This document shows positions 1,684 through 46,231 of a stretch of 64,000 nucleotides of DNA, piece after piece; within the stretch, counting starts at the first letter, position 1, and each line of letters opens with the position of its first letter. The stretch lies in NCBI GenBank assembly GCA_000333855.2, contig CM007332.1:37138-101137 (forward strand). Reading direction: 5' to 3'. A program made the translations under genes and the position numbers. The stretch comes from Endotrypanum monterogeii (lineage: Eukaryota; Euglenozoa; Kinetoplastea; Trypanosomatida; Trypanosomatidae). The notes beneath the pieces were generated by a model. The model had not been told where the DNA came from, ran no database searches, and saw only the letters and a program-made list of their open reading frames with translations.

Positions 1684-2410
1684 GGTGACCCCCCCTCATT
1701 CCCCCCCTCCCTCATTCCCTCTCCTTTTTGATTTCTTCCTTCAGATCACTTTGTTTCACATGCAGTTGAGCGAGTATTCTCATCGGCTGTGCACGCTAAC
1801 TCTAATGTCCCTCCCTCCCTACACACCCGCAGATCAAACAACAGCAGCAGCACCCCCCCCCCCCAAAAAAAAAAACCTTGCCAGAGGTGACGTGATGCCT
1901 GAAGCCCTGCATTGACAGATACTGCCTCCACGGATGAGGCCGATTATATGGTACGGAGATGCAGTTTTGGCACTTGGAGAAGAATAGTGCGGTTGACAGT
2001 GTTCTTCTGTCGAGGAGATGTTGTTTGATGAGGGTTGTTTTGCTGTATTCTATTGTGCGTGTGCTGTCCCCGTCATTCTCTACAGCCTGGTTACTTCGGG
2101 CCACTGACTCGCGCGCCTGGCGCACTGTTTCCCACCACAGAAATGTGATGCGAGCATTTAAATCTCTGCCTTTTTTTCTCCTCCTCGTGAAGCTTGCTCA
2201 GCTCGAAGTCAATACGATTCGTCGCAGATCCGTTTCCTGTCGCCCCCCCCCCCCACCCACACACACAAAGCATATAAATAAATATATATATATATATATA
2301 TATATATGATATTTTTCTCCGTACTATTAGTTCATACATAAAGATAAGTTTGTGGTGTGGCCACGAGGAGTGCACAAGTTTCCAGAGCCGCTTTCCTTGT
2401 TCCTTGTATA

Positions 2411-2430
2411 TTTTTATCCCCCCCCCCCAG
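2411..2430 (+). promoter_or_regulatory. Likely trans-splice acceptor for the APH-1-like gene
   Basis: A T-rich then C-rich pyrimidine run is closed by AG at 2429-2430, the first AG after the tract. It lies 38 bases before the ATG at 2469 and downstream of an in-frame ATG at 2352, which argues against that earlier start. Confidence 0.55.
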
Positions 2431-2468
2431 AGGGACAACGTATATTCCGTCTCTCTGGTCGACAAGAT

Positions 2469-3872
2469 ATGGCCTACGGGATTCTGGTGCTCTGCACCGT
2501 CGTCCTCTATGCCCCCCACATCGTCTTATGTGGAATGGGGATCCGGTGGCAACCCATGCTGTTTGTAGTGAGCCTGCTCTCATCACTCATCGCATTCCTG
2601 CCGCTTGTGGTGACAGGGGCGGTATTTCAGGTCCTGCACTGTCTCGGTGTTGCGGATGCTGCCGTGGCTACATCGGCGGTGATGATTCACTTCATTCTTC
2701 AGAATGCGGTTCGAGTCGGTGTGCTGCACGCCTGCTTATGTTTACAGCGACTGGGGTGGGAGCATGGCTGTCTTCTGGTTCGCAGCCGATTTCCCTTGGT
2801 TCCCCTGAGTATCGCCGTTGGCGCTGGCTTCGCGGCGACCTCTGTTCTCGTGAGTGGCGGTGCGCTTCTCGCAGAGGCGTGGGCTGTCGCGGGTAGTTTG
2901 GCAGGCAGCAAAAGCATCTCTTCCTCCTTCCGCAGTGAGTCTGCGCGGGGGGCTGACGTGTTTGCACACAGCGAAGGGTGCGCGGGGCTTCCTCGGTTTG
3001 TGCTGGCGTGCTTTCAGCAGACCTTCTTCACCTGTGGGCAAGTGGCGTGGACCGTGATGGTGGGCCAGGCGTATGCTGCCCTCTGGCCTCAGGACGCAGG
3101 GAAGGACTCGATATCAAAGAGTGCAGCCTCATCGACATCATTACAAGGCGTTCTCTTGTTCGCCGAGGCCTCCGCAGAGGGCGCGGGAGGGGACACCGTA
3201 TCGATGCCACAGGTGGCGAGGCTTGATGTGGAGGATGTACGACTGGTGGTTACTGAGCAGTTACTAGTGGATGCAGACTTGCAGCAGCCGGCTTTCGGAG
3301 GCAGCAGGCCGGACACGATGGCTTGCAGCGAAACAAAAGCGTGCTCGTGTTCGGCTGCGGTGTCGATGTCGCGTGAGGACGCGGAGGCAAAAAAGGGCGT
3401 CGCCCGCAGTGGCGCACGTTTTGCGAGCGATGATGCTGGCGCTGACACAGGATCAGCTTCAACGCCTTCTAGAGTCCAAATCGAAAGGTCTACTACTGCC
3501 TCAGAGAGTGCGGAAATTGTATCGCCACCGTCGTCCTTATCTGACATTGCTGGCTGGATTGTGGGGGATTCGGTTTTCGCTCAGCGACTGCCCACCGCAG
3601 CCATCACTGGCGCTGCAGCGCTGGCTCTACATGGGTCTTTTGTATTGCTGCCTCTGACCGCGATGAATACAAATACTGACCCTGCGCACAAAACAGCAAC
3701 GAGTTCAGAAGGCAGTGAAATGGGTGTGTGCTTCGCTAGTGTGCTTCTGCAGTGCGTTGTGACGATCGTGTCGGTGGTATGGGGATTGTGGATTGTGCAG
3801 TTCGAGCGTTACCCCTCAGCATACATGCTCCTTCCTCTATCGGCTTCTGGGGATGTGCCTCGAGGTTCGTGA
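2469..3872 (+). CDS. APH-1-like multi-pass membrane protein (candidate gamma-secretase subunit)
   Basis: 467 residues from the first ATG after the likely acceptor. I see seven hydrophobic segments, at about residues 1-22, 30-56, 63-90, 108-138, 174-206, 371-397 and 419-450, the helix count of APH-1, the scaffold subunit of gamma-secretase in the ER/Golgi membrane. The start (MAYGILVLCTVVLYAPHIVL) looks like an APH-1 first helix. Segment 3 has LQNAVR where APH-1 has LQExxR. Segment 4 keeps the first Gly of the APH-1 GxxxGxxxG motif and ends in LLAEA, like LADA in APH-1. Segment 5 keeps a Trp (W194), but the first conserved APH-1 His appears as Q191; H388 in segment 6 could be the second. A Ser/Ala-rich insertion of about 160 residues between segments 5 and 6 is unusual for the family. 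The comparison is from memory. The alternative is an unrelated seven-helix protein. Confidence 0.5.
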   Translation: MAYGILVLCTVVLYAPHIVLCGMGIRWQPMLFVVSLLSSLIAFLPLVVTGAVFQVLHCLGVADAAVATSAVMIHFILQNAVRVGVLHACLCLQRLGWEHGCLLVRSRFPLVPLSIAVGAGFAATSVLVSGGALLAEAWAVAGSLAGSKSISSSFRSESARGADVFAHSEGCAGLPRFVLACFQQTFFTCGQVAWTVMVGQAYAALWPQDAGKDSISKSAASSTSLQGVLLFAEASAEGAGGDTVSMPQVARLDVEDVRLVVTEQLLVDADLQQPAFGGSRPDTMACSETKACSCSAAVSMSREDAEAKKGVARSGARFASDDAGADTGSASTPSRVQIERSTTASESAEIVSPPSSLSDIAGWIVGDSVFAQRLPTAAITGAAALALHGSFVLLPLTAMNTNTDPAHKTATSSEGSEMGVCFASVLLQCVVTIVSVVWGLWIVQFERYPSAYMLLPLSASGDVPRGS

Positions 3873-9204: not shown

Positions 9205-9505
9205 CGTTCCTCCTCCCTCTCCAAACACCTCTTTAACAACAACAAAATGAAAGAAAAAAGAGTGACGGTGGTGTGGGATGATCACATCAATTTTAATACG
9301 ACAACGTTCGGCGTGGGAATGGTGGACACAAGTAACGTGTTGTCTGTGCCCCCCCCCCCCCTTCACACACACACACCTCACAGTTATTGCAACTGGCCCT
9401 CCAATTTCTCACTGCGAGCAGACTTAGCCTTTCATGTGTACTGTGTCGGCTGTGAGTTGCGCTCCTGCGCTGTACCCTACATGAACACTTTTTCTTGCGT
9501 CTGGA

Positions 9506-9555
9506 TCCCCCCACCTCTTCATTTTCCTTCTCCCCCATCGAGCACTTCGGCTCAG
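9506..9555 (+). promoter_or_regulatory. Likely trans-splice acceptor for the IQ/PHD-like gene
   Basis: A C/T-rich run ends at AG 9541-9542, with a second AG at about 9554-9555. Either gives a 5'UTR of 20-33 bases before the ATG at 9576, and both lie downstream of the non-ATG opening of the frame. Confidence 0.5.
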
Positions 9556-9575
9556 TTGTGCTTGTGGGGTTGGCC

Positions 9576-10910
9576 ATGCCAACATCATCTGTGATATATC
9601 CCCCAGCGGGTGTGAACAATATTAGCGGCTGTCATGGCGCGGTGGTCAAGCCCTCCCGTGAACTGGCAGCGCGCGTCATACAGACCTGGGTGCGCAGACA
9701 CTGGGATCGACGATACGCACATCGCTTGCTCTTATTGCTTCACGTGATGGCGGCTTCCCGTGCCCCTGGTCATCGACTCAGCGAGGGGAGCATGTGTCAG
9801 TTGGTCTCCCCAACCGAAGGACCGACTGCGCTCTCCTCGTCTTACACCACCCGTGATATGGCCCCCGATACGGATGACTACTTTGGAAGAATGTACGAGA
9901 CTGTAGTGAAGTACGAGTCGGCTCTGCAACTCGAGAACTACACGCGTCGACTGCTCGCAGATGAGTTTTGTGCCAGCAGTGAAGTCGCCCGAGGGGCCTC
10001 GCACGCGACACGCCACATACTGCGACAGCAGCACCCGCTCTTACGCCGTGTGTCACTGAGTGCGGATGCCCTGCACTCGGTGGCTAAGGATTGTTCTCGA
10101 GCTCGGCACAACTCCATTTCCGCCACCACTGTGACCCTGGAAAAGCTGCGCTCGTATCTGACTCCAGAACTCTTCTCATGGTGGCGCGCGGGGCAGCGGT
10201 CTCCCTCCGCCTGCGTACCTTATGCCGCACCTACACCCCCACCCATCCACAACGCAGCGAGGGATTTCGGATTGAACCATCCTTTGCCGCTGTGTACCAA
10301 TCCAGGTGGCGCCCGCATGGATGAGGTTCTCGAGAGCGGAGGGTTAGAGGCGGTGTGGATGGAGGTGGGGGGTGATGAGATAGATGACGAGACTGCTATG
10401 AACGTAGCGTACACCACAGAGAGGGATGCCGTAAAGAAGGACGCATTTCTCACCGCGCAGAGGACCACGTTGGCTGGATGCCCTGATCCATTCGCCACGC
10501 GCGATGGCGATGGCGCGGCGGGTGTGCTGCGGGAGGATGCGTCTTCGACATGTTTACCGGAGGGAGATGACATCCATCTAGTGGTTCAGCCTGTTCTCGG
10601 CGGCGTTGCACGCAGGCGGTTCAGTGACATGCATCATCCCTTGGCGAAGCGCCCCACAACGGTAGAGGAAGTTATTCATCTACGCGAAGGGACTACGGAG
10701 GCTCCAATGTGTGCTGTTTGTGAACTCTGCGGTGTTGTGGCGAACTTGCAGAATACCGCTGACACCGTACTGGAGACGCAGGAAGAGGATGAGCTGCACC
10801 CCTGCAGTGCGTGCCACGCTCTAGTGCACACATCCTGCGCTTTTCCCTGTGATACTGCCGATATCTTCTACTGCAGCCGCTACTGCTCCTCAGGTGGGAA
10901 CAGGGCGTGA
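9576..10910 (+). CDS. Protein with IQ-like motif and C-terminal PHD-like zinc finger
   Basis: 444 residues from the first in-frame ATG. Near residues 27-45 is RVIQTWVRRHWDRRY, close to the IQxxxRxxxxR calmodulin-binding motif (R after a bulky residue instead of RG). The last 67 residues hold a cysteine/histidine pattern: CxxCxxC at about 378-385, about 25 residues, CxxC, four residues, HxxC, about 12 residues, CxxxC. This C4-H-C3 order is that of a PHD zinc finger, which binds histone tails in many nuclear proteins; the 25-residue gap in the first loop is long but allowed. The middle is acidic and probably disordered. No nuclear signal is obvious. IQ plus PHD-like is an unusual pair, so both assignments need structural support. 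I do not recognise a named orthologue. Confidence 0.75.
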   Translation: MPTSSVIYPPAGVNNISGCHGAVVKPSRELAARVIQTWVRRHWDRRYAHRLLLLLHVMAASRAPGHRLSEGSMCQLVSPTEGPTALSSSYTTRDMAPDTDDYFGRMYETVVKYESALQLENYTRRLLADEFCASSEVARGASHATRHILRQQHPLLRRVSLSADALHSVAKDCSRARHNSISATTVTLEKLRSYLTPELFSWWRAGQRSPSACVPYAAPTPPPIHNAARDFGLNHPLPLCTNPGGARMDEVLESGGLEAVWMEVGGDEIDDETAMNVAYTTERDAVKKDAFLTAQRTTLAGCPDPFATRDGDGAAGVLREDASSTCLPEGDDIHLVVQPVLGGVARRRFSDMHHPLAKRPTTVEEVIHLREGTTEAPMCAVCELCGVVANLQNTADTVLETQEEDELHPCSACHALVHTSCAFPCDTADIFYCSRYCSSGGNRA

Positions 10911-12012: not shown

Positions 12013-12044
12013 TCTTTTTCCTTTCCATTCGAGCCTCCCTTCAG
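12013..12044 (+). promoter_or_regulatory. Likely trans-splice acceptor for the ORC3-like gene
   Basis: A T/C-rich run is followed by AG at 12032-12033 and by TTCAG with AG at 12043-12044, 40-50 bases before the ATG at 12084. Confidence 0.5.
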
Positions 12045-12083: not shown

Positions 12084-14807
12084 ATGTCGGACGTACTCGG
12101 ATTCCTGAACGGGGTGTTGCACAAAGTCTCAGCCACGTTCATGCCGACTGAGATGGACGACGTCGCCTCGTTCTTGCGAGGCGATGCATGGGTGGTTGCG
12201 ACGGGAGCTCCTTTGTTGACAAGGAAGACCACAGAAGCATCTTCTACAGAACCGGGAGACGTGCCGCGCGGAGCAGGAATGCTGACTACAGCGCGTTATC
12301 CCCTTGGGGCTACACGCTGGGGCCATTTTATACCGCTTGGTATTGCGGGCACGGAGCTTGTTTCTGCCGCCACTTCCAGCATGCGAGGGATCCTGGTCAA
12401 TTTCTTTGAGAGCAACGGCTTCAAGCATGTGCTCACCCTGAGTCTTGTGCCCACCGAGCAGCAGCATCTGCAGCAATCTCAGGTGAATCTGACCACGCCA
12501 GGGGGGACGGTGGGTTCGCGTGCTTGTGAGGGCGCTGCATTGTCCCGCGACGGCGACTGCAACGCAGACTTCTTGCGCGCACAGCAGCTTTTTTTTCCTG
12601 CGTCGATCGACACCGCCACCGCCACCACTCGCGCCTCACGAAAGCGGACTCGGCCCGATCCGACCTCGTCTTCGGTCGTTGACATATCGCTGGACAGTCG
12701 CTATGGCTCCACGGCGGAGGCGGCGCGACACAGCTGCATAGCTGCCGTGCGTCGCTGGTTCGAGAAGGTGGAGGATAGTGCTTTACTGGACATCGCTCAA
12801 ACAAAACAAGACAATGGTGGAGGTGCTTTCGAGTGCACAAATGGCACTGCGCAGTGTAAGAGAAAAATGCAATCGCAGCGCTTACTTGTCATAGTGCGAT
12901 GCTGCACAGACAATCGTATCGCCTTCTCCACACGCGGCGGTGCTGTAGGTGGTGGTCCGGCATCCACTTTGGGTCCAGGGCGCCGACACCGTCGCGGAGA
13001 GGATCCGTTGTACCTTTTTTTGCATGAGCTTGCAGCTCTCACTACATTCTACGAGGTGCGGCTGGCCGACACATGCTGCGCGGCGCGGCCTGCTGTGCTG
13101 CTGCTACCCGAAGACGATGGGTACAGTGGCGCCATGCTGCGGCAGAAGCTGCGGGAGGAGGTGGGAAGCCGTTTCTGGGTCGAACTTTTCCATAATTCCG
13201 ATGGCCCGTCGAGTAGTGGCGGGGGTTTGGCGAATGCCGGACGAGGATCGCAGAGGAGCGACGGATGGAGAACAGCCTTGATAGGCAGCGGCACTGGTGC
13301 GAGTGACGCACCTGGGGGATCGGGCGGCATTTCGCAACATCGACGCCACGAGCAGCCCGAGACGCCACTCGCACGCGGTTGTCGTCTGGCGGCTCAGTGG
13401 GGTGTTCTACACCTGCCAGGGGCATTATCAAGCGAACCACACGCTGCTCCAAATAAGATGGACACCTCACACGCGGGCCTTCCTCCTTCCACGGATGTCT
13501 GTAATGGCGGCGGTTGCGTTTCCGGTGGCGCGTCATCCCCAACTGCAGCCCCTCCCCAAGTGGCACGGCTTGTATCTCCTAAGCAACAAGAGGAGGAACT
13601 GCGCCGCCACGCGGCTTGCTTCTTTGCGCGACCCAGCAACGCTCCACTGTGTGTGTTCTTGCTGGAAGCGCTACGTCGCTTTCCCGTGCTTGTTCGCCCA
13701 GTTGTACTGCAACACTGGCAGTCCACGTGGACCGCACGTCACTCGTTGACGGATTCGTTGTTTGCCTTCCACACGGCTCTATGCCCCTTTATGCTCTCCG
13801 CGTCTTACTGTGGAAGCGTGGGGCCTTATCAGGCGTCATCTGCGCTGTCGAGCACCAGGGATAGACCAACGTTTCCGGCAACCAGGATGCTGCAGGACAC
13901 CACGGATCTCCTCGACGCGCTGCTATCTGCTGCATTCACGCTTGCTGAGGAGCGCGATGCTACACATCCGCTGTCTGCCAACGACTTGGCCATTGAGCAG
14001 GCGACACTGTTTCTTCTGTTCTATGAGGCGCTTGTGCACCAGCGTGAGGGTCGACTGCGCCGTATTCCCGACCTGGTGCGCGTTCTTGTTACCCTATCAG
14101 ACCGCCACGACAGCACCGCTGATGAGTCCACTCCGTGTGCTCCGGGTCGGGGGGCCACTACAAACGAGAAGGTGCATTACGCGGTCCGACATCTCCTCCC
14201 GTTTTCACCCTTGAATCTTTTTTACGAGCGAGTTGCACAGTTGACGGCCTCCTCGCACGATGACCGCGGCACTCAGCGTGAGGTACAGAGATACCCGATG
14301 AACTCACTTGTCCTTCCCATACGTCGCGTGTCTGTTGCACCTCAACTGCAGCACAGCACGCTACTTGCTCTCCTGCCGATTAGGGAATCGCTGATGGAGA
14401 TCCACGGGGTGGCGGAATCTTTGTGGCGGGATCAACTGCCTTCCTACTGGCGGCGTGTCCTGGGAGCCATGGGCACAGGTGATAACGCCGCAGGGGCGCA
14501 CCCCACCACTGCAGCGCTGTCAGTGGCCCATGAAAACCCTGACGCCCGCGCACTCACTCAACTCAGTCCAGATAACTTCTATCACCCCAACGTACCACAT
14601 GCTGTTCGCGTTTTGTATGTGTTAACCGCGCACGCCCTCCGCGCCCCCACGGAGGCCGCAAAGCAAGTGCCGATTGTGCACCTCCAGGTCATATCCCAAT
14701 TGTCGGACGAGCAGTTGCTGCGCACTCTAAAGGAGCTCGAGAGTGCCGGGCTGGCGAGTACGAATATGAAAACAAGAACAGCGCGAACACTGGTGGACAC
14801 GGTGTAG
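12084..14807 (+). CDS. Origin recognition complex subunit 3-like protein (divergent)
   Basis: 907 residues from an ATG just after a good acceptor; human ORC3 is about 711. Collinear blocks resemble ORC3 as I remember it: (1) residues about 82-125, FIPLGIAG through a helix to HVLTLSL, like the IP...G...VVSL strand region; (2) RLLVIVR at 266, like the VVVILK strand; (3) LRQKLREEV then FWVELFHN at 364, like HRLLPHAV...CIELFQ; (4) FPVLVRPVVLQHW at 533, with the same spacing as FPxxxxxxVLQVL in ORC3; (5) a C-terminal winged helix (about 835-907) with SPDNFYHPN near PHAVRVLYVL and final LRTLKELESAGL...TRTARTL, like the ORC3 ending. No Walker A is present, as expected of ORC3, which does not hydrolyse ATP. 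Ser/Gly-rich insertions separate the blocks. The role would be origin licensing in the nucleus. The call is inference from pattern and memory. Confidence 0.55.
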   Translation: MSDVLGFLNGVLHKVSATFMPTEMDDVASFLRGDAWVVATGAPLLTRKTTEASSTEPGDVPRGAGMLTTARYPLGATRWGHFIPLGIAGTELVSAATSSMRGILVNFFESNGFKHVLTLSLVPTEQQHLQQSQVNLTTPGGTVGSRACEGAALSRDGDCNADFLRAQQLFFPASIDTATATTRASRKRTRPDPTSSSVVDISLDSRYGSTAEAARHSCIAAVRRWFEKVEDSALLDIAQTKQDNGGGAFECTNGTAQCKRKMQSQRLLVIVRCCTDNRIAFSTRGGAVGGGPASTLGPGRRHRRGEDPLYLFLHELAALTTFYEVRLADTCCAARPAVLLLPEDDGYSGAMLRQKLREEVGSRFWVELFHNSDGPSSSGGGLANAGRGSQRSDGWRTALIGSGTGASDAPGGSGGISQHRRHEQPETPLARGCRLAAQWGVLHLPGALSSEPHAAPNKMDTSHAGLPPSTDVCNGGGCVSGGASSPTAAPPQVARLVSPKQQEEELRRHAACFFARPSNAPLCVFLLEALRRFPVLVRPVVLQHWQSTWTARHSLTDSLFAFHTALCPFMLSASYCGSVGPYQASSALSSTRDRPTFPATRMLQDTTDLLDALLSAAFTLAEERDATHPLSANDLAIEQATLFLLFYEALVHQREGRLRRIPDLVRVLVTLSDRHDSTADESTPCAPGRGATTNEKVHYAVRHLLPFSPLNLFYERVAQLTASSHDDRGTQREVQRYPMNSLVLPIRRVSVAPQLQHSTLLALLPIRESLMEIHGVAESLWRDQLPSYWRRVLGAMGTGDNAAGAHPTTAALSVAHENPDARALTQLSPDNFYHPNVPHAVRVLYVLTAHALRAPTEAAKQVPIVHLQVISQLSDEQLLRTLKELESAGLASTNMKTRTARTLVDTV

Positions 14808-15698
14808 CACACACCTACCAAATAGGAGAGGAGAAGCTAGGGGGGGAGGGGGCGGTTCTCCTGGTGGTCATTTGTCCTCTCAACTCCAGGGCGCCGTGTC
14901 CGCTCTTTACCTCCCTCCCCCCTTTTATTTGTTTTTTTTTTAAGGGACGACCGCGAGACACACACACACACACACAGTTCATGGAGGCGACGTACGGGAA
15001 ACTCCCTATTTTATGCTTTGAGGATATCTATGAATGTGTGCACCTGCATGGAGCATCGGCCCAGACTTCCCAGGCAAGCTCCGTTCTGTTTGTGTGTCAT
15101 CTCTTACTCACAACCGCTCTTTTTTTTTTTCTCTCCACCTGCGCGGGGGCGGGGCTTGGTGGGGGAGGGGGACGAAGGAGAGGGGGTGGGGCAGTAGAAA
15201 AAGGAGGTCCACTCAGGGGAGCTTCTTTATTGCCTTGGAGATTGATGTCGGGTTACTTTGTCGCCTTTCACCCGCGGAATATACTCCTGTTTTCGCATAG
15301 CATTTGTGTTGTATTGCTGGTTCCTCTATTATCCCCGTCACGCTGTTGAGCGCCATCGACAGAGCCCTTTGGGCGACTACTCTTCATGCCCGCACTGTCC
15401 GCCTTTCGCATGTATATATATTAAAAAAAAAAAATTCTGCACTTCTTTCTCCTTTTTCCCACCATCCTCTGTTTTGTGTGGCCGCGTGATTGTACGTGGG
15501 GCGGATGTTGTGGTGACAGAGTCACGATTGCTTTCCCTTCTTTTCTCCCTTTCTCTTTTCCACTCTTCCACACATTAGCTGCTTTTGGTTGAGGAGACGT
15601 CGTTGTGGAGAAAGACCTTCGCGTGCATACAGTGTGCCACATTCTTGCTGACACCTCCGCATGCTCGGGATTCACTCAGAACATGTTGAGTGGACGAT
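14808..15698 (+). other. Intergenic region between the ORC3-like and USP genes
   Basis: Holds a poly-T run at about 14931-14941, a (CA)n tract near 14958-14977, another poly-T near 15120-15130, a G-rich block at 15147-15190, T/A runs near 15411-15434, and the long pyrimidine tract used for the next acceptor. No gene seen. Confidence 0.65.
15530..15578 (+). promoter_or_regulatory. Likely trans-splice acceptor for the USP gene
   Basis: About 40 bases of T/C are closed by CACATTAG, with AG at 15577-15578. The 5'UTR would be about 120 bases. Confidence 0.55.
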
Positions 15699-18600
15699 AT
15701 GGCCAAGTCGGACATGACAAATATTTCTGCAGCAGCAGAGAAAACGCATATGGAGAGGGAGACCGCCGTACCTCACCAAGAACGGGTGTTGCCACCACCT
15801 CCCGTGGAGTTGGCCCTGGAAGAAGGCCCCGATGTTGCTGACGCATCGACGGAGGATCCGGTGGAGTTCATTCTTCACCGAGTCGATTGTATTGAACAAT
15901 GGCGGGCTACAGTCGTGCGCCTGAACGCGACGCAGCTGGGAGTGTCGCTGGTGCGCGGAGTGCTGCGACGCGGTCGCTTCGCAACGCCGCCACTACGCCC
16001 CTTCGAGACGACGGAGACTCGGGCACTGGCAGGAGGTGCAGTCGAGGCGAGGGAGGAGGCTCATGTACATTGCCCAGCGCTGTCGGAACTACCATCGCTG
16101 CGCACGTGCACGGCGTACGATCCCGGGCAGTCAGCTACACCTATTTTAGGACAAAATGATAGTGGGGCCGCGTCTCGGCAGGCAGTCTACCCTCACCACG
16201 ATAGCGTATGTAGTACGCACACTATTTCACAACCCAGCGTCGCTCGCCGCACACTCGTGCAGAGCGTCAGCCGTGCCTCTGTTCCCCTGTATATGGGTAT
16301 TCTATCCGCCCTCGTTGCGCACGGTGTAACATCCCTGTATGACGAGGACTCGAGGACCGACTCGCAGAGCGCCAGTGAAGCTGCGGCGGCACGACCTGTC
16401 AAGGCAGCCGTGTCCACACTCTCTACAGCTGAGAGGGACTTCCAGGCACCTGAAGGCTACCTGCACTTGTCTACGGATATGAACCGCGCGCTGCACGAGA
16501 TCCACCGAGCGGCGGCTGAGGTGATATGTACTATAGATCACGAGAGTCAAGAGATGCAGACGCTCGCATCGGCGTGTCTGATGAGTGAGGAGGACTCCAT
16601 GAGGGATCTCCAATTGGATGTGTGCCGGTCATGCCGGCGGCTCAGCCTCATCGCAGCAAATCTTTACTCGCTCGTGGCCTTCCTGAGCTTTTTTGCGGTG
16701 GAGGAGGCGGTCTTGCCGGTGAAGGCACTGGGAACTGCCGTCCGCACTGCCGCCTCGGTGGCCACCGCCTCGCACCTATCTGACGAAGCCGCAGCGAGAG
16801 CAACGCACGAGGCGGAGGCAGCATGTAGTGCAGGCAACGACTGCCATCCGCGTTGTCCTCCAATCCACTCACTATCGACTTTCCCATCCGTGTCGGCCGT
16901 TGCGACGGCGACAACCGATCACGACGCTCACGCGATCGCTTCCACCGGCGGCACCGGTAAATGGGTGCCCTTTGCCTCAGTCACATGCCCCGCCCATCAT
17001 ATGCTCGAAGCGATCGCAGCGGTGCCCCCGTACACGGTGGAGCGTTTCCATGAGCTCTTCGACGCATCGGGTCAGTTGCCACAAACTGTGTGGAGGGTGT
17101 TTTCCACAACCGCCACGACTCTGAGCCAGTTCGCTGTGAGTTGGTCTCTCACCACAGGTGATGCGCAGAGCCACCAAACATTCAACAACACCGCACGTGC
17201 GGTACTCGGCGAGGATCAGCGCTGCCTATTGCTGCAGCTGCATCGCCTCTGTTCTCGCTTCGTCGTTCTCCGGCACCGAGTGTACGCCCTGCACCCTGTG
17301 AACCCTCTCTACTTCAAAGTGAAGCAGATGCTAGAGTGGGGTGGCCTCCTCAACGCCAGCGTGCCGGATGAGTGGTCGTACGACAACGGCGACATTGACC
17401 GATGCGATTTGCATAGTGATTCATTGCATAATACCTATCCGCTAGGCCATCATCTGCGCGTAAGTGCCAGCAACAGGGCAGCGCTGCGGGCGGTGATGAC
17501 GTGCCCGCACGCTGCCACGGCGGGCGACTCGGCACATCGGCGGGTGCAAGGGAAGAGCGCGTTTGTGCCAAGTGGACACGGGGTCGGCGGCGGATGGCGA
17601 GGGAGCACTCCAGGCGATGGCCGTGCATCAGCCCCGCTTTCCCTTCTCGCCTCACTTGTCTCTGCTGGGACGAACGGCAGAGCCAGCGCCGGCCTCGCCA
17701 GCCTCCTGACAGGCTCGTCAGCCGACCCAAGTCCAGGACCTAGTGGGGCTGCATCGCTTCAGCACTCCTCTGTGCCGGGATACGTGGGGCTGCGGAACAC
17801 CGGAAACACCTGCTTCCTCAACAGCGTGGTGCAGCTCCTCGGCAGCGCATCGCTGTTTCGTGACGATCTAATGCTGCGAGTGCAGAGCGCAGTCTTCGAC
17901 CATTCGGCGTCCACCGATCATCAACCTCCGGAAGACACTCGTGCCACTGCTACTGAAATAATGGCGGATCTCTTCACCAAGTATGGCTGTCGCCTCGCCA
18001 TTGCGCTGCTACTCGGTGAACTGCAATGGCGCGGTGCACATCACCACCAAGGTCCTGCGGTCGTACCGGACTACCTTACCCCACACCTGCCGCCGCCGTT
18101 CGACGACCATCATCAACACGACGCCTCAGAGTTTTGGCACGCGCTGTTGGATCAGCTGGATTTGCCGAGTCAGCCTGGTGGTGCTGTCGTCGCCAAGTGG
18201 TTCAGCGGCCGAACAACAACCACGATGAAGTGCGTGTCTTGCCAGCGTAAGCGCTTGCACACGAATACCTTCTGGGACATCTCCACACCCCTTCTCCGTT
18301 CGGCCTCGGCTTCCTCTGCGCCAGTCCCTTTGGGAGGCGGGCCGTCCAGCCCGGCAGCGGTGTCGACAAAGCCTGGGGCGGCACCCACCACATCGACAGG
18401 GCCTGTTGTGAAACAAGTTGATGTGGAGCGCTTTGCCAATGCCACTGCTGTGACCACGACGTACATGGATCCATCAGCACCCGAGGAGCTTATCAGCACG
18501 TCGACTGCCGCGTACGCATCTGTGGAGCAAGAGGCGGTTACGGACGCAGAGGAGGATCCCAGGATGTGGATTGACGGTCAAACGATCTTGTCGACACCCC

Positions 18601-20672
18601 CCACAGATGCCCGCCGCCAGGTCACGCTTTCTTCTGTCGCCCTGCCATCGCCCTCCAGGGTGGAGGCGCATGAGGCACCCAAGACGTTACAACACCTCTT
18701 GCTTCACGTCCTTCACCCTATTCTCAACAAGGAGCTCTTGCACGGTAGCAATGCCCTTGACTGCGAACACTGCCATCGGCGCACCGACACCGTGCTCACT
18801 ACACGTCTGGTAGCGAACGTGGGCAGAGAGGGACAGAGGGAATGCGATGTGGCGGCAGCAGACTTACACGATAAAGGCTCGAGTGTTGTGTCGTTCACGC
18901 GCGTCTTTACCGATAGCGGCGCCGCTGATGTAGGGCGCGAGGTTGAGGAGGGGATGCCAGGTACCCCCCGTGAAAAGGAATGCGGGTCTCCACACGGGAG
19001 GTCCCAGTCGATGGCGACGGGCTTGAAGTCTTCGGACTCCGTGTCGAATACAGCGGCTGGAGGGGGTCTTCCGTACTACCTGGCGATCCAGCTGAACCGC
19101 TTCGCCTACCAGCGCATCTCGCAGTCCTACCAAAAAATTACCGATGGCGTACCGCTGAATGAGGTGATCATCGTCCCCGTCTACACCACAGGGGCTGAAC
19201 AGCGAGACCCACCCCAGCCCTCTTCGGGTGTGCATGGGTTCAACAAATCGACTCTGACGACCAGCGAAGTGGCGGGCAACTGTGATCTGCAGCACGAAGA
19301 CGAAGGTCGGTACAGTAGCCCTGTTGATCGGGTATCAGCGGTGCCTGCCGATCCGGTCTGGGTTGCGTATCGTCTGCGAGCTATCGTCATTCATAGTGGC
19401 TCCACGCCGAATAGCGGTCATTATTTCACACTGGCGCGTTGTCTCGCAGCGACGCCGGTGGAGGTGCAGCCTGACAACAGGAACTACAGCGAAGAAGAGG
19501 TGGATCATGCGGTTGTTGCATCAGAGCTGGCGACCCTGCGCGCATACGTCGAGCAGCTGGGGTCCGCGCTCACCAGTTCCCTCCAGGCCGAGCCTGATTT
19601 CCCCAGCGGGCAACGTGCGCGCCAAACGACGGGGGCAGGCGATGCGGCATCAGTTGAAGGCTCTTCGAGTCATAACGGTGCAGAGGTGGCTGGCTGGCCG
19701 CCACAGGACAGGGCTCCTGTGCCACACACGCCCCCGGGCACCGAGGCGGGGTTCCCATCACCGGTGCCTTCCCCAGCGCCGACACTCCCCGACGCCGCCG
19801 TTTCAGTCAGTGGCGATCGCCTCTACGAGAGCTGGGTGATGCTCAACGACTCCCACGTCCAGCCGGTCGGCGTGGACACGATGCGCAGCATCTTGCACGG
19901 GTCTGGTGGTGGTGTGTACTCATCCATGGAGACGCCGTACATCATACTCTACGAAAAGACGCCGGTCGCCTTTCAAAAGACCGCGGCGCACCCTGCGCTG
20001 TCAGGGAATGAGGAAGCGGCGGATCCATACGTCCCTGACGCTACACGGTCGGTGGCCCTGAGGTTGCAACGCCTGTGGGAGACACCTTATCCCTCGGTCT
20101 GCAACTCAGGCGGCGCCTCCACTGGTGACCCACGCGCCGAGTCGGTTCAGTTTTCTCCGGCAGTAATGCAGACGTTCACCGCGCGGCTGAAGGACGAGAC
20201 GGCCAGCAGCACCGCCAACAAACCCGTCTCCCGAAAGATAAAGCCGTATATTCCCCCTTTCATAGTCGGCAATGAAACGCGTCCACTTCCTCAGGCAGCA
20301 GCTGCACTGACATCCGGAGAAACGCAAGGCGCAACTTCGAGAGCTGCTTTCGCTGAGCCACCATGGGTTGGCACGACGAATACCGGAAATGTGGTCCCAT
20401 CCGAGGGATCCAAAGCCTTTCATGTGGATCTGAGCAATGATGTACCAGTCGTTTCCAGTGACCGCAACGTTAGTCGTGCTACAGCATCACACCGCCCGCG
20501 TCGGCTGACATCCGTTACCAAGTACAGTCAGGTACTTCGCACCAAGCGGCACAGCGCATCCAGGAACCACGGAGGTGCAGGAAAACACCGAAAGCGTGGC
20601 GGCTCGGCGCACAAGGGCGCTGTACTCAGCTCAAGTGGTAGCGATGTCAGCTCAGAGCTGGACGACGGGTAG
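15699..20672 (+). CDS. Ubiquitin carboxyl-terminal hydrolase (USP, peptidase family C19)
   Basis: 1657 residues from the first in-frame ATG; the frame opens three codons earlier at a GTG. It removes ubiquitin from proteins. The Cys box is GLRNTGNTCFLNSVVQ, with catalytic C705. HQHDASEFWHALLDQL matches the QQDAxEF box. Two Cys pairs, C845/C848 and C1022/C1025, form the usual fingers zinc site. YYLAIQLNRFAY is the LxLxRF strand. The His box SGSTPNSGHYFTLAR has H1241, and the third catalytic residue lies in SWVMLNDSHV (D1384). The protein ends that domain with the YILLY-like strand PYIILYEK. The catalytic domain is split by Ser/Thr-rich inserts at about 870-990 and 1045-1115, and in the region after the His box. 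The N-terminal 690 residues have helical parts (16430-17300) but no UBP finger that I can see. The basic C-terminal tail may be a nuclear signal. All catalytic residues are present, so I expect activity. Confidence 0.95.
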   Translation: MAKSDMTNISAAAEKTHMERETAVPHQERVLPPPPVELALEEGPDVADASTEDPVEFILHRVDCIEQWRATVVRLNATQLGVSLVRGVLRRGRFATPPLRPFETTETRALAGGAVEAREEAHVHCPALSELPSLRTCTAYDPGQSATPILGQNDSGAASRQAVYPHHDSVCSTHTISQPSVARRTLVQSVSRASVPLYMGILSALVAHGVTSLYDEDSRTDSQSASEAAAARPVKAAVSTLSTAERDFQAPEGYLHLSTDMNRALHEIHRAAAEVICTIDHESQEMQTLASACLMSEEDSMRDLQLDVCRSCRRLSLIAANLYSLVAFLSFFAVEEAVLPVKALGTAVRTAASVATASHLSDEAAARATHEAEAACSAGNDCHPRCPPIHSLSTFPSVSAVATATTDHDAHAIASTGGTGKWVPFASVTCPAHHMLEAIAAVPPYTVERFHELFDASGQLPQTVWRVFSTTATTLSQFAVSWSLTTGDAQSHQTFNNTARAVLGEDQRCLLLQLHRLCSRFVVLRHRVYALHPVNPLYFKVKQMLEWGGLLNASVPDEWSYDNGDIDRCDLHSDSLHNTYPLGHHLRVSASNRAALRAVMTCPHAATAGDSAHRRVQGKSAFVPSGHGVGGGWRGSTPGDGRASAPLSLLASLVSAGTNGRASAGLASLLTGSSADPSPGPSGAASLQHSSVPGYVGLRNTGNTCFLNSVVQLLGSASLFRDDLMLRVQSAVFDHSASTDHQPPEDTRATATEIMADLFTKYGCRLAIALLLGELQWRGAHHHQGPAVVPDYLTPHLPPPFDDHHQHDASEFWHALLDQLDLPSQPGGAVVAKWFSGRTTTTMKCVSCQRKRLHTNTFWDISTPLLRSASASSAPVPLGGGPSSPAAVSTKPGAAPTTSTGPVVKQVDVERFANATAVTTTYMDPSAPEELISTSTAAYASVEQEAVTDAEEDPRMWIDGQTILSTPPTDARRQVTLSSVALPSPSRVEAHEAPKTLQHLLLHVLHPILNKELLHGSNALDCEHCHRRTDTVLTTRLVANVGREGQRECDVAAADLHDKGSSVVSFTRVFTDSGAADVGREVEEGMPGTPREKECGSPHGRSQSMATGLKSSDSVSNTAAGGGLPYYLAIQLNRFAYQRISQSYQKITDGVPLNEVIIVPVYTTGAEQRDPPQPSSGVHGFNKSTLTTSEVAGNCDLQHEDEGRYSSPVDRVSAVPADPVWVAYRLRAIVIHSGSTPNSGHYFTLARCLAATPVEVQPDNRNYSEEEVDHAVVASELATLRAYVEQLGSALTSSLQAEPDFPSGQRARQTTGAGDAASVEGSSSHNGAEVAGWPPQDRAPVPHTPPGTEAGFPSPVPSPAPTLPDAAVSVSGDRLYESWVMLNDSHVQPVGVDTMRSILHGSGGGVYSSMETPYIILYEKTPVAFQKTAAHPALSGNEEAADPYVPDATRSVALRLQRLWETPYPSVCNSGGASTGDPRAESVQFSPAVMQTFTARLKDETASSTANKPVSRKIKPYIPPFIVGNETRPLPQAAAALTSGETQGATSRAAFAEPPWVGTTNTGNVVPSEGSKAFHVDLSNDVPVVSSDRNVSRATASHRPRRLTSVTKYSQVLRTKRHSASRNHGGAGKHRKRGGSAHKGAVLSSSGSDVSSELDDG

Positions 20673-21570: not shown

Positions 21571-22420
21571 AGTAATTCTCTATGCACACACATGATGATT
21601 GATGGAGAAGCATTGAGGCTGAACAGCAACGAGACCCACATGTATGCGTGTGCCACGTGTATGCGTAACCTCCGAGATCCAGTCGAGTGACTAGTGGAGC
21701 AGAAATCTTGTGAAACGTGATGGTTCCCCCCCCCCACCCCATATTATATTATAGTGGAGTCCATCAGACCCCAATCTGTATTTTGTCGATTTTATGTCGA
21801 GTAGCGTAGTGACTTGGAGCACAGCAAACGAGAAAGAACTGAAAATAATAATAATAATAAAAAACAAGTGGGTAGGTCGACAAGGTCTGAGGGGGTTATG
21901 ATTCGTAAATGGAAAACCTTAGTGCACTCTTCTGATAGGTGTCAGAGTCGCACTCTCGCGCCCATCTCACGACAGATCCCATCGGCTTTGGCCTTTGTCG
22001 CGCACCTCTTATCGAAAGGAAGACTGAAGACGCCCAGGAGGCCTTCAATAGGCACACGACCTTACTCGATGACTGGGGGGGGGGGGCGGCGGCGGCGGCT
22101 CGCCGTGTGTACGCTGGATGAACACGCTGCAAACATGTGCGACAATGAAGAACTATTTTTACTGATTCTGTTCCTCTTTTTTTCTCCTTTTATGACACGT
22201 ACACGCGCACGTGCTACTGCCACAGTGTGCTCGAGTGCCTTCACCCTCTGTGTTGCATCTTTTTGTATCTCATCCCCAACCCCCCTTCTTTACGGAGCAG
22301 CAGCAGCACCACCATCAACAACAGAAACATCTCATCAACGCGGCTTATCGGGTGCGTCTCTCTCAGCGCTTCCTGACGAGGAGGGGGAAAAAGTCCTCTT
22401 GAGCACTTCCAACGACACAC

Positions 22421-22519
22421 GTGTGTGTGTGTGTGTGTGTGTGGTGATACCGAGGAAGCTAGCTGTAAACGGCGGTGCAACAATACGCGAGGCAGCACAC
22501 ACACACACACACACACACA
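22421..22519. repeat. Complementary (GT)n and (CA)n tracts separated by about 53 bases
   Basis: Eleven GT units at 22421-22442 and about twelve CA units at 22496-22519 are complementary in inverted orientation, so RNA across them could fold into a stem of about 22 pairs. Confidence 0.8.
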
Positions 22520-23189
22520 GGCACCATAGCCAATTCTCTCTTTGGCTTTCCGCTCAACCCTCATCGTTTCCCCCACAATCTTTCTTCCTGTTGCTCCTGG
22601 TGTACACGCCTCATTGTGGCGTTCGTCCCTTCACTGCTTTTTTCTTTTGTCCCCTTTTTAAAAAAAAAATTCATTCATGTGTATTATGTAGTGCACGCGT
22701 CTCTCCCTCTCTCCCCGCGACGCGTTTTCGCTTGTCCGAGTGACACCTGTCTCTGCTCCTTTTTCAACGGCAACTCCTTGGTGATTTTTATTTTGAGAAT
22801 CAAGGGACTTACACACACTGGCGAAGACAGACAGACACAGACGTAATCAAGTGTGTGTGTGTGTCCTTTTTTTTCTGTGAATATTTTCATTGTGTGTTTT
22901 GGGGGGTTTTTCTTTCAATACTGCGAAGGAAGGATTGTGTGAGAATTTTTTAAAAAGGCGAATGTTGCGGGCAATGGCAGAAACGCGCGTCTCTCCGACC
23001 CCATAGCATCCTTCCGTCCTTCCCCCCCCCCTGCTCCTCCTCATCCCTCCCCACACACGTTTGCCTGTGGGCACCACCTTAGCGTGGCCACATTGTCGAT
23101 TGAACGATTGTTCTCTCAAATCGTACCCCATATTGACCATTCGCGTTCTTTTTATTTTTGTGACTCATCCAGAATATTTACGAACACAC

Positions 23190-23585: not shown

Positions 23586-23661
23586 CTCATTGTTCTCGTT
23601 CTAGTTGTCTTCACTTCAACCGAGCTCGCTATCGTCTCCAGGCGTGCGGTGCCAATCCCAG

Positions 23662-26600
23662 ATGACGCGGTCGTTGTCCAGCGAAACACCAAGCGGAGAC
23701 GGCGGCAGCGACAGCGACACAGGTGGAGTTACAGCCGAAATGGCGAGTACGTCACCGGAGTTGGTCTCGCGGGTGCCAGCTGCCTCCTTGCTTTCCTCTG
23801 CCAATTTCTCAAAGGGCTCCTTTCACATGCCTGCATCGACCTCAAGGGGGACACGCAGTGAGGACTGCGCGACGGGGCGTGCGGACACCATAAAGGAAAA
23901 CAGATTCGCTGCACATGATTATAGACAGCAGATGCCGCATATTCTTTCCTCGACAGACAGAGGTGGCCCACAGCCGTTAACCCCGCGACGCCAGTCATGC
24001 CTCCCTTGTAGTGGTGGTGATGGCGGAGAACCTTGCCAAGCCCGAGACAAGGTTAGTACTAGTGTGCCAACACCAGGCCTTGGGCTGATATCTTCTCCAA
24101 CAAGTACAACGAGTATCCCCGAGGAAGCGGGCGAGAGACCCAGTGTCATTCCAACTTTTGGACCGATGGGCCGGCAACTGGGCGGCACCACTGTGTGGGC
24201 TTCTGCTGTGAACGGCTGTGTTGCGGCAGCCCCAACCGCCGCTAGTGCTTGTACATGGGGACCGTCTTGTTTCTCTGCCCATGGCAACGGTATTCACATC
24301 CCTCTTCATCGTCCTCAACAAATATGCAGCGTCTTAACGGTTGATGCAATGGAACCCACAGACTCGAGGACGCCTGTGTTGTCGCATACTGTGCGGAAGC
24401 CCACCGCGCCGCCTCCGGTTCACGGGCCCGCTGTGGCTTGTCGTGAACGAACTTCGGATGGGGTTGATGTCACGCTTGGAGACTGCGTGGAAGCGGAGGT
24501 TGCGTCAACGCTGAGGGAAACCCATGCACCAGCCTCCGTTCAAAAGCACCTTCCCACGGACAAAAATCAGTCGATGGGTGCTGCCGCGCTCGATAATGAG
24601 GCGGCTCGGGAAGGGTTAGGAGAAGGGCCAACGATACTCGTCACGTCTTCTGCTGCCCGCGCAGCGCAGGGCGAAGGCGACAGCGGTGGCAGTGCTGAGC
24701 GCCTTCGCATCCGTGCTGGGAATGATCAGCGAAAGCATCCCGTGACTGACGATATGAAAGACGTTCCCCAACTGAATGAAGACGTGTGTTGTGCCTTCAC
24801 AACGGAGGCACCCGTGAAGCACTTACCCTTCTCGATTTGCGAGGAGTCGGGCACCAGCATCGCTCCAGGTCTTGACCTACTTTCGGTCAAGAATGGCTTG
24901 CTACGAGGGCTGGTGTCGTCGTCATCGTTGCAGCAGCGGAGCAGCTGCCCAGCGGAAAAGACTGATTGTACGGTTAGAGGGGCCAGAAGCGGCGACGGTA
25001 GCCTGGGGAGTCACTCAAATCCTATTGCCCTCAAGCAGATCATGGAGGACCCACCGTGCAGCCACTGCCGCCATGTGGCACAATCGAGGGGCCGTAATTT
25101 CGAGGACCTCATGATATTGCCTCTCACCTCTCTTGTGACTGTGCCCCCAACAGTTCAGACACTTCTTCTGAACTCAGACACAACCAAGGAAGAGCTCTGG
25201 ATGGCGCTCCGAGATCTCTGCCAGCGACTTGAGGTTCTCGAGTGTCGTCTTGCGCGAGGTGAGATATCGCTGGGGAATGAAAAGGGGCGCTATGAAAAGG
25301 TGGGGGGGGGAAACAGCAGTGCAGCCAACAATACATCCAGCGAATACCGAAGGGGCGATGTGTGGAAGAACCCGACGACACCGTCGCCCAGGTCTGACCT
25401 GGAAAAGAAAACCGACCGCACAGCGGGTGATGACTGCACGGGCACAGGTGTTCACAACGCTAGGAGCGACCTGGCCAAGGTGCAGGTGGATCCGGCACAC
25501 TCGTGCAGCAGTGCTTCATTTCAGACCCCCGTACCCACGAGAAACAAGCTCAACTCGAGCCACTCGCAGATGAAGCGCACAGGAGAGTGGGCTACTGCCC
25601 CCTCATCCACTGCAGAGACAGGCATTGCACACATCTCCGTGGATGCCCACCCGCATGCGAACCCGCGTGCCACTCTTTTGAGTCCCAGTCAGAGGGACTG
25701 CAGTAAGAGCAGTAGTGTGTCTTGGGAACTGCGCAGCCGAGTAGTGGAGGTGATCCGCAGCGTCGAGAGAGAGCGCAAGGCACCAGCGATCTCCGTAGCC
25801 GTCCTCCAGCCACACGAGGGTGGAGCAGGTCGTCCTATATGCGGTCTGAACGATCCTAGATACCCGCGTGCGCTCGGTGACGGCACCCGCGAAAGCAGTA
25901 GCAACCTGTGGGGTTCCTCGATATTGGCGCCGTCGGCTGACATGCCAGGGATCCTCGCCAGCGCGCCTTCACTGAGTGTGCACACCGGTGGGATGCGGTA
26001 TGCCCGCACTGTAAGTGATTCACCGGTTTCCGCCGCTTCAGCTGTTGGGCGGACCGCCTGTGGCCCTGCGCACCCGCCGCGCACTGTGGGAGAGGCTGAA
26101 TCGTGTGGAGCTGCCTGCGATGCAGTCTCGCCGCGGGCATCTAGGGGTCAAAGCGATGGAAGTGTGGGTGACGATGCTCGAGTCGTGGGCACTGGGTTCT
26201 ACGTGGCTTCCGCGTTGCCGGTGATATCCGCGGGAGAGGTGCACACGCCGCTCCCATGGTCTACGCGAGACCCTGGCTGCGATGGGGAAGGTACCAGTAG
26301 CGCCGCAGGGGTGCAACGGTCACTGTCATTGCCGGCGTTCCCTGAATGCGCGCCTGTTGCTGTAGGTGAAGGCGATTTTTTTAACTTCGTGGCTGACGTC
26401 GCATCGACCTCCTGGGGATGCGACGCTGTCCAGGCGACAACCGGAAGTACTGCCAGTGAGAGCTACCTGAACCACATTTCACTCAACACGCGCAGTCTCA
26501 CTCCGTCAAGCGCGGGCCAGCATCCGTCAGGGTCTTCGATACATAGGAGGGCCTACGACACTTCCGCAGCAGTGATCTCCAGTCGAGTGGTTCCCCGAGG

Positions 26601-27021
26601 GAATATAGTGTCTGCGGTGCACGCGCCTACGTCCTCCCCACGTCAGACCGCTCGAGAGGGTCCCTGCGACCGCGGAGGAAACACCTCACCGAACAAGCAG
26701 CCCGCGTCCCAACAGCAGCAGGTGCAGGAGCAGGAGCAGCACCAACATCCACCGACGACAAGGACACATGCCTATGGGGATGACGCTGCTCAGTTGGCGC
26801 AGGTCACCGTTCGATTGCAGTCATTGCTTCCCGTGCAACCGGACGGCCCCGGCTCAGCAGTGCATTCAACTGCCTCACAAACACTTCAGTGGCTCAGGCA
26901 GCTGCAGCAAGAAGGCTCTGCCGTGTCACTCGTCACCGAGACCGATGAAAGGATTGCGCTGCGGCAGTGGAGGAGCGAGGCGGCGTTGGTGAAGGCAAAG
27001 GGAACACGGACAATGTACTAG
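23662..27021 (+). CDS. Hypothetical protein, largely disordered
   Basis: 1119 residues from the first in-frame ATG (MTRSLSSETPSGDGG); the frame opens 19 codons earlier at a TTG. I do not recognise it. Nearly the whole chain is rich in Ser, Thr, Pro, Gly and Ala with scattered charges and looks intrinsically disordered. Two parts look ordered: a short amphipathic helix at about 512-535 (LWMALRDLCQRLEVLECRLA), probably a small coiled coil, and a C-terminal helical segment from about 1035 to the end, including LRQWRSEAALVKAK. A Gln-rich stretch near residues 1015-1028 (QQQQVQEQEQHQH) separates them. There is no signal peptide, membrane segment, zinc pattern or enzyme motif. Length and uninterrupted frame in a GC-rich coding style support a real gene. 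Disorder plus two helices suggests a scaffold or RNA-associated protein, but this is a guess. Confidence 0.8.
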   Translation: MTRSLSSETPSGDGGSDSDTGGVTAEMASTSPELVSRVPAASLLSSANFSKGSFHMPASTSRGTRSEDCATGRADTIKENRFAAHDYRQQMPHILSSTDRGGPQPLTPRRQSCLPCSGGDGGEPCQARDKVSTSVPTPGLGLISSPTSTTSIPEEAGERPSVIPTFGPMGRQLGGTTVWASAVNGCVAAAPTAASACTWGPSCFSAHGNGIHIPLHRPQQICSVLTVDAMEPTDSRTPVLSHTVRKPTAPPPVHGPAVACRERTSDGVDVTLGDCVEAEVASTLRETHAPASVQKHLPTDKNQSMGAAALDNEAAREGLGEGPTILVTSSAARAAQGEGDSGGSAERLRIRAGNDQRKHPVTDDMKDVPQLNEDVCCAFTTEAPVKHLPFSICEESGTSIAPGLDLLSVKNGLLRGLVSSSSLQQRSSCPAEKTDCTVRGARSGDGSLGSHSNPIALKQIMEDPPCSHCRHVAQSRGRNFEDLMILPLTSLVTVPPTVQTLLLNSDTTKEELWMALRDLCQRLEVLECRLARGEISLGNEKGRYEKVGGGNSSAANNTSSEYRRGDVWKNPTTPSPRSDLEKKTDRTAGDDCTGTGVHNARSDLAKVQVDPAHSCSSASFQTPVPTRNKLNSSHSQMKRTGEWATAPSSTAETGIAHISVDAHPHANPRATLLSPSQRDCSKSSSVSWELRSRVVEVIRSVERERKAPAISVAVLQPHEGGAGRPICGLNDPRYPRALGDGTRESSSNLWGSSILAPSADMPGILASAPSLSVHTGGMRYARTVSDSPVSAASAVGRTACGPAHPPRTVGEAESCGAACDAVSPRASRGQSDGSVGDDARVVGTGFYVASALPVISAGEVHTPLPWSTRDPGCDGEGTSSAAGVQRSLSLPAFPECAPVAVGEGDFFNFVADVASTSWGCDAVQATTGSTASESYLNHISLNTRSLTPSSAGQHPSGSSIHRRAYDTSAAVISSRVVPRGNIVSAVHAPTSSPRQTAREGPCDRGGNTSPNKQPASQQQQVQEQEQHQHPPTTRTHAYGDDAAQLAQVTVRLQSLLPVQPDGPGSAVHSTASQTLQWLRQLQQEGSAVSLVTETDERIALRQWRSEAALVKAKGTRTMY

Positions 27022-28771: not shown

Positions 28772-28960
28772 TTCTTCCTTCTGATTTTTTCGTTGTTGCT
28801 GTTGTTCATTGGATTTTCAGGGAAAAAATTATTCTGTCCTGCGGGCGCACATCTCATTCGCATCCCTCTCAGCCGCTCAAGCCCCAGACTCGCATCCACA
28901 CCCCTACCTTTGAACCACAGACCCCCTGAGAGGCCGTCAAAGCGTATTGGCGTTTTTCAG
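28772..28960 (+). promoter_or_regulatory. Likely trans-splice acceptor region for RPT3
   Basis: A T-rich tract ends in GGATTTTCAG with AG at 28819-28820. A second, CGTTTTTCAG, has AG at 28959-28960. They give 5'UTRs of about 226 or 86 bases. Both lie before the ATG at 29047, and the second coincides with the non-ATG opening of the frame. Confidence 0.5.
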
Positions 28961-29046
28961 TGCATCGAGTCATAGAACAACGACGGGTACCCCATCCGCC
29001 ACTACCAGCGCTAGCCTTTCCTTGTTTTGTGGAACCGCTGAGTAGC

Positions 29047-30282
29047 ATGGCCACCTCCACACTTGAGGCCAAATCGGCCATGAGAGCTTCCGCCCTTGCC
29101 ACGAGAAAAGCGGAGAAGGACGCGCGCATGAGCCGCTCTCTTTTTGAGGAGTACGAGCAGCTGAGCAAAGAGATCAAGAACATCCAGCTCAAAACGATGA
29201 TCTGCAGGACTGAAACACATCAGCTGATGAAGGAGGAAAGCGCGGCGAAGCAGGAGGTGAAGCGCATCCAGGCAGTGCCCCTTGTCCTCGGAAATTTTGT
29301 CGAGGCCGTTGACAGCGTGCGTGGTATTGTGAGTGGCACAAGCGGTTCCCAGTACTTTGTGCGCATCCTCTCGACACTCAATAAGGAGCTGCTCAAGCCC
29401 AATGTCAGCGTCGGTCTGCACAAAAGCAGCAACGCGTGTGTGCAGCTGCTGCCAAGTGAGACTGACGCAACCATCACACTGCTAAACCCGAGCGATAAGC
29501 CCGATGTCACATACGCAGACGTGGGTGGTTTGGACATGCAGAAACAGGAAATTCGAGAGGCCGTGGAGTTGCCGCTGACTCACGCGGGTCTCTACGAGCA
29601 GATCGGTGTGGATCCTCCGCGCGGTGTGTTGCTCTATGGTCCGCCCGGCACCGGGAAGACGATGTTGGTGAAGGCTGTGGCGCAACACACGAAGGCCTCC
29701 TTCATCCGTGTGGTAGGCAGCGAATTTGTGCAGAAATTTTTGGGCGAGGGCCCGCGGAAAGTGCGAGACGTCTTTCGCCTCGCTCGTGAGAATGCACCGT
29801 CGATTATTTTTATTGATGAGGTAGACTCCATCGCAACCAAACGCTTTGATGCTCAGACGGGTGCCGACCGTGAGGTGCAACGTGTGCTGGTGGAGTTGCT
29901 CACCCAGATGGACGGCTTTGACCAGACAACCAATGTCAAGGTGATCATGGCCACAAACCGCTGGGACACACTCGACCCTGCCCTACTGCGCCCGGGCCGC
30001 CTCGACAGAAAGATTGAGTTCCCTTATCCTGACCGCCGCCAGAAGCGCCTCGTCTTCCAGGTCTGCACGTCGAAAATGAACTTATCCCCTGAGGTGGACC
30101 TCGAGGACTACGTCACACGCTCGGAGAAGCTTAGTGGAGCTGACATTCAGTCTATCTGTCAAGAGGCAGGTATGCTGGCGGTGCGAAAAAATCGCTACGT
30201 CATCCTGCCGCGTGACATCGAAAATGCCTATCGCACCGTGATCAAGAAGACCGGGGATGGTACATATGACTTCTACTCGTAG
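29047..30282 (+). CDS. RPT3: 26S proteasome regulatory particle ATPase RPT3
   Basis: 411 residues, the usual RPT3 length. It is one of six AAA ATPases in the base of the 19S cap that unfold substrates and feed them to the 20S core in cytosol and nucleus. Residues about 25-75 form the N-terminal coiled coil, followed by the OB domain. [20 protein letters not shown] and the following EAVELPLTH segment are characteristic of RPT3 among the six paralogues. Walker A is GPPGTGKT at 198-205 and Walker B is IIFIDEVD with D257/E258. [20 protein letters not shown] supplies sensor 1 and the arginine fingers. The C-terminus is YDFYS; yeast and human RPT3 end in a hydrophobic-Tyr-X type motif used to dock into the 20S alpha ring, so the final FYS is compatible but a residue should be checked. 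The start is the first ATG after the acceptors. Confidence 0.97.
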
Positions 30283-46085: not shown

Positions 46086-46150
46086 CAGGAAGAGAAATGT
46101 GCTTTTTTCCCTCTTCTGAACCGTTCGTTCCTCTCTTTCCTCCACTTCTC

Positions 46151-46188
46151 TCCCCCCCCCCTTTACACACACACACACACACACACAG
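46151..46188 (+). promoter_or_regulatory. Likely trans-splice acceptor for the DEAH helicase gene
   Basis: A C10-CTTT run followed by (CA)n ends in ACACAG with AG at 46187-46188. This lies downstream of the in-frame ATG at 46097 and 44 bases upstream of the ATG at 46232, so I use the latter as start. Confidence 0.5.
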
Positions 46189-46231
46189 TCGTTTTCTTGC
46201 ATCCTTTTTATTTTTTGTCGTTGTTTTCCGT

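Follow-up and report, generated by a model that had tools for sequence, protein, structure and literature searches.

A conserved gene of Endotrypanum monterogeii as an unproven candidate for the ORC3 subunit of the kinetoplastid origin recognition complex

Our analysis concerns a window of 64,000 nucleotides from Endotrypanum monterogeii (GCA_000333855.2, contig CM007332.1, positions 37,138 to 101,137 of the forward strand) and, within it, a gene proposed by a first-pass annotation to encode a divergent ORC3 subunit of the origin recognition complex (ORC). At the place given by that annotation, a single ATG-to-stop frame of 907 amino acids (aa) runs from 12084 to 14807 on the + strand. A protein search of the organism's own genome (30.7 Mb, 44 contigs) found the gene at one place, on contig 12. 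Thirteen homologous proteins were recovered by protein search from sources including Porcisia, several Leishmania, Leptomonas and Novymonas, the closest being that of Porcisia hertigi (70% identity), and a search with the inserts cut from the query recovered a Phytomonas homologue, P0014 (expectation value, E, 3.1e-85), which aligns at 32% identity with 57% of that query. The contig carrying the Leishmania major homologue (675,346 bases) is presumably L. major chromosome 12. With about 8000 candidates scored per protein search, no Trypanosoma or Bodo orthologue was found, the named matches being from Porcisia, Leishmania, Leptomonas, Novymonas and Phytomonas. Judged by this conservation, the frame is a genuine gene, found once in its own genome and conserved in other trypanosomatids. 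The family used in the tests below has 15 members, namely 13 proteins, P0014 and P0003. We treat the product as a candidate, serious though unproven, for the ORC3 slot left vacant in kinetoplastids.

The features of the gene are collected in Table 1. In a model of residues 1-377, the N-terminal domain alternates strands (83-87, 115-120, 263-273 and 332-342) with helices (90-97, 101-110, 210-245, 308-330 and 347-360) and is interrupted by low-confidence inserts (126-196, 246-260 and 277-304). The predicted local distance difference test score (pLDDT) is mostly 54-88 in the blocks holding these strands and helices, and a RecA/AAA+-like N-domain is thus predicted with moderate confidence. The absence of a Walker A motif was noted correctly at first pass, since GxxxxGK[ST] occurs neither in the protein nor in any of the 15 family members; the Walker B pattern hhhhD[ED] occurs in one member only, P0003. 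The helical region that precedes the winged helix scores 49-71 over residues 601-710 and below 50 in its remainder. The full-length model (mean pLDDT 38.6) is too poor for the base domain. The C-terminal winged helix, which had also been proposed, is confidently modelled. A basic patch, RKRxR, lies within an otherwise variable insert and is aligned in 14 of the 15 members, while P0014 carries the pattern elsewhere, at residue 521. Upstream of the ATG, the pyrimidine tract with AG is what a trans-spliced gene would show, and a role as trans-splice acceptor is likely.

Table 1. Features of the candidate gene in the window (positions are those of the window; residues are those of the protein).
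Feature	Position	Strand	Basis
907-aa open reading frame; conserved gene for a candidate ORC3-like protein	12084..14807	+	homologues; one place in own genome
Pyrimidine-rich tract ending in AG, 39 bases 5' of the ATG; likely trans-splice acceptor	12014..12044	+	sequence; function presumed from trypanosomatid biology
Predicted RecA/AAA+-like alpha/beta domain without Walker A, residues 82-370	12327..13193	+	model of residues 1-377; fold neighbours
RKRTR, residues 186-190; conserved basic patch, possible nuclear localisation signal	12639..12653	+	alignment; function presumed
Mostly variable, low-complexity insert, residues 373-498, between base and lid-like helices	13200..13577	+	alignment; low pLDDT
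Conserved helices in the AAA+ lid position, residues 499-574, holding FP-x6-VLQ (13680-13712)	13578..13805	+	alignment; pLDDT about 31-42
Mainly helical region, residues 599-796, between lid-like helices and winged helix	13878..14471	+	full-length model
Winged-helix domain, residues 826-907	14559..14804	+	structure model

Taken as one polypeptide, the predicted RecA/AAA+-like domain without an ATP site, the helical middle (modelled at low confidence) and the winged helix at the end have the layout of ORC3. The premise that trypanosomatid ORC is diverged and its subunits hard to match was right. In the available passages of the literature, the T. brucei ORC so far comprises ORC1/CDC6, ORC4, the ORC2-like Tb3120 and the ORC5-like Tb7980, leaving Orc3 and Orc6 without an assigned protein. 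These passages describe Orc3 as not known from T. brucei and as perhaps missing from kinetoplastids, and they report none in Discoba. The gene would fit this gap. Based upon these observations, we predict, at close to an even chance, that the product is a nuclear ORC-type subunit, most likely in the ORC3 place between Tb3120 and Tb7980, where it would help form the ring that loads MCM2-7. Its AAA+/RecA-like domain would no longer bind ATP and would be joined to a lid and an insert, both helical, and to a winged helix at the C-terminus, and the protein would bridge the ORC2-like and ORC5-like subunits of a divergent kinetoplastid complex. We infer the ORC membership, the ORC3 place, the partners, the nuclear site and the lid, the last of these from the order of domains.

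A number of results weigh against this assignment. Two domains define ORC3 by sequence, and neither was found in any of the 15 members at E up to 10: PF07034 (ORC3_N) matches human ORC3 at 6e-91 and yeast Orc3 at 4.6e-84, and PF18137 (ORC_WH_C) matches them at 1.1e-31 and 3.5e-23, respectively. For this reason we do not file the protein as a member of ORC3. Searches of PDB by phmmer and by profile gave no ORC chain among the matches listed, which included cyclin H (0.037), VPS4, photosystem II and POP2. Comparison of hidden Markov models, in which an ORC3 match above background had been anticipated, gave only E 0.23 against human and fly ORC3, over 17 winged-helix columns; reruns gave 0.29, then 0.35 against human and fly, 0.81 against three ORC3 and 0.23 against yeast. 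These comparisons were unstable, as trimmed input or other column settings moved the best piece elsewhere. Mean pLDDT of the base model (residues 1-377) is 50, and Foldseek with this base returned no row at E <0.001 (best 0.35). In VIA comparisons, all base neighbours lie below Z 8, and the top three (7.2-7.3) come from the Psy3-Csm2 (Shu) complex rather than from ORC3. With the winged helix, VIA matched general winged helix-turn-helix (wHTH) proteins, and no ORC chain stood among the 50 rows listed, which does not exclude a family outside that list. In the literature, too, the relevant passages on T. brucei ORC1/CDC6 immunoprecipitations name no Orc3, and the available text on the T. brucei complex, which is larger than its known subunits, offers missing subunits as an explanation and favours bound MCM.

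Other domain searches were uninformative. PF19675 (ORC3_ins) matched none of the 15 members, and yeast Orc3 is likewise without a match, so this domain is not common to all ORC3. Pfam matches up to E 10 were insignificant (VIR_N, 0.46, in 1/13 proteins; Cdc6_C, 0.24, in P0014), and NCBIfam matches among 14 members were taken as chance (psbA, 0.024, in 2/14; CysN, 0.48, in 1/14). Own-genome searches with PF07034, PF18137, PF04084, PF14630, PF09079 and PF14629 returned nothing; since the controls were positive in 5/14 genomes for PF09079 and in 0/14 for every other family, these negatives say little about absence.

The first-pass annotation had relied upon five blocks in the order and spacing of ORC3. 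We cut these blocks from human and fly ORC3 at the proposed places and scored each against 100 column shuffles. In the proposed place, the score was equalled by 42/100 shuffles for the IP block, 93/100 for lid/FP and 83/100 for PLHE, which is no better than chance, and the winged-helix block was marginal (7/100 in place, 22/100 anywhere). The Walker-B block did beat its shuffles (2/100 in place, 4/100 anywhere); the register of its best match is shifted, and this match ends at residue 353. The letters themselves are largely as described, with IP at residue 83 and FWVELFHN at 364; between FP (533) and VLQ (541) lie six residues rather than the seven claimed. The spacing differs from that in ORC3, with ELF and FP 168 residues apart (365-533) versus 26 in human ORC3 (176-202 of the tested stretch). 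FP-x6-VLQ is exact in 8/15 members and present in relaxed form in 15/15, and the Y/W/C-ELF pattern occurs in 11/15. Both are found in human ORC3 and in neither the fly nor the yeast stretch tested, and hence they are not ORC3 signatures.

Yeast Orc3 served as a control for these comparisons. The human and fly HMMER profile missed it in PDB at E 1, hhalign reached it at E 0.002 with a probability of 14%, and pairwise BLAST linked it to human/fly at E 2e-5 in a two-sequence search. It passed two of the five blocks (Walker-B and winged helix, 0/60 shuffles each) and failed the other three. The negative outcome therefore indicates divergence beyond that between yeast and metazoans and is no proof of unrelatedness. 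Sequence alone does not show that the protein is ORC3. The claim that the gene supplies the ORC3 slot is partly supported, with the fold leaning for it and the sequence tests against it. In the models a RecA-like base is predicted beside the winged helix, the fold matches of the base being below significance.

Orc3 and Orc5 chains ranked with the better AAA+ neighbours of the base in the structure comparisons, all below significance. The highest VIA values fell to Psy3-Csm2 chains (3vu9_B and 5xyn_B, 7.3; 4dt1_A, 7.2), the rows leaving unspecified which are Psy3 and which Csm2, and RadA, RAD51-complex and Elp456 chains were also present. It is conceivable, although unlikely, that the product is a RecA-like protein without ATPase activity, of the Shu-complex or Elp4-6 type, fused to a winged helix and acting in recombination or another nuclear process rather than in ORC. 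However, the two best Orc3 rows lie within 1 Z unit of the top and count as tied, and the Psy3-Csm2 chains have only about 190 residues in these rows. To our knowledge, they contain neither a winged helix nor a long helical insert.

We think it improbable that the gene encodes another member of the ORC/CDC6 clade, be it an initiator paralogue particular to this lineage or a diverged protein of CDC6, ORC5 or ORC2 type. Orc5 chains and an archaeal Orc score alongside the Orc3 chains, and the sole sub-threshold Pfam match of P0014 is to the CDC6 winged helix (residues 743-778). Nevertheless, its E of 0.24 is at chance level here, considering the values for psbA and cyclin H, and the motifs of the ATP-binding initiators (ORC1/ORC4/ORC5/CDC6) were not seen in the 15 members apart from the hhhhD[ED] of P0003. 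Loss of the ATP site suits ORC3 (or ORC2) more than CDC6 or ORC5. In addition, candidates for Orc1, Orc4, Orc2 and Orc5 have already been proposed in the T. brucei passages available.

There is a similarly small chance that the RecA-like base is a model artefact and the product a helical-repeat protein with a winged helix (PCI type, as in the proteasome lid and COP9) or a transcription-type wHTH protein. Foldseek with the full-length model gave no row at E <0.001, its top row being a 26S proteasome chain (E 0.055, prob 0.38) followed by COP9 (0.11) and further proteasome rows, which we take to be PCI proteins. These alignments, however, have a root-mean-square deviation above 20 A, VIA on the full-length model covers only residues 826-907, and the fragment model alternates strands and helices over 83-360. 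Orthology with Tb3120 or Tb7980 was ruled out, as the available passages give other genes, LmjF01.0660 and LmjF36.6700, as their L. major orthologues.

Returning to the ORC3 reading, it is quite possible, if somewhat less than an even prospect, that kinetoplastids have kept a full ORC ring, that ORC3 descends from the common eukaryote ancestor and that its absence from Discoba is an artefact of detection, this gene being an ORC3 diverged beyond sequence recognition and carrying long low-complexity inserts. If so, this unusual replication system would regain a conventional ring. A named candidate gene makes the question of kinetoplastid ORC3 directly testable. Searches of open-access papers led to no passage naming an ORC3 in kinetoplastids, the passages covered including those of PMC3297607, PMC4889932, PMC12759066, PMC7058166, PMC7052976, PMC9213392, PMC13179062 and PMC5662062, and six guessed L. 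major names of the gene led to no open-access paper.

The window holds 18 open reading frames (ORFs) of at least 200 aa, 15 on the + strand and three on the - strand, the latter overlapping + ones. On the + strand, the neighbouring 1660-aa ORF (15690-20672) has a ubiquitin C-terminal hydrolase domain spread over residues 699-1250, hence with long inserts. The others include a proteasome-type AAA ATPase (28960-30282), a HAGH-type metallo-hydrolase (31292-32179), a class I (C) tRNA synthetase (42554-45100), a SET-domain protein (55406-57304) and an ornithine/arginine-type decarboxylase (58175-60286). The 2874-aa ORF at 46097-54721 (+) may encode a giant helicase-like protein: it matches Helicase_C weakly, just below the cut-off (residues 1109-1201), and also has a C2H2-type zinc-finger match. 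Long + strand ORFs at 2352-3872, 9495-10910, 21814-22743, 23605-27021, 33726-38411 and 39113-41149 had no Pfam match at E 0.001.

Psy3-Csm2, a RecA-like fold without an ATP site, would resemble the candidate in the predicted base, with the best VIA Z over 153 residues, and differs in the short length of its chains. Tb3120 and Tb7980, as described in the available passages, are similarly kinetoplastid-restricted, highly diverged and without a BLAST link to ORC subunits; they are separate genes from the candidate on contig 12. With ORC3, the candidate shares the order of its predicted parts, from a RecA/AAA+-like domain that lacks Walker A through a helical middle to the winged helix at the C-terminus, comparable to the N-domain, insertion and winged helix of human ORC3 in Pfam. 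It differs from ORC3 in its long low-complexity inserts, in the lack of matches to PF07034, PF19675 and PF18137, and in that no C-terminal IN-x2-D-x3-AF, a stretch common to the human, fly and yeast proteins, can be made out by eye. The nearest fold neighbours of its base include ORC3, alongside ORC5 and other P-loop proteins.
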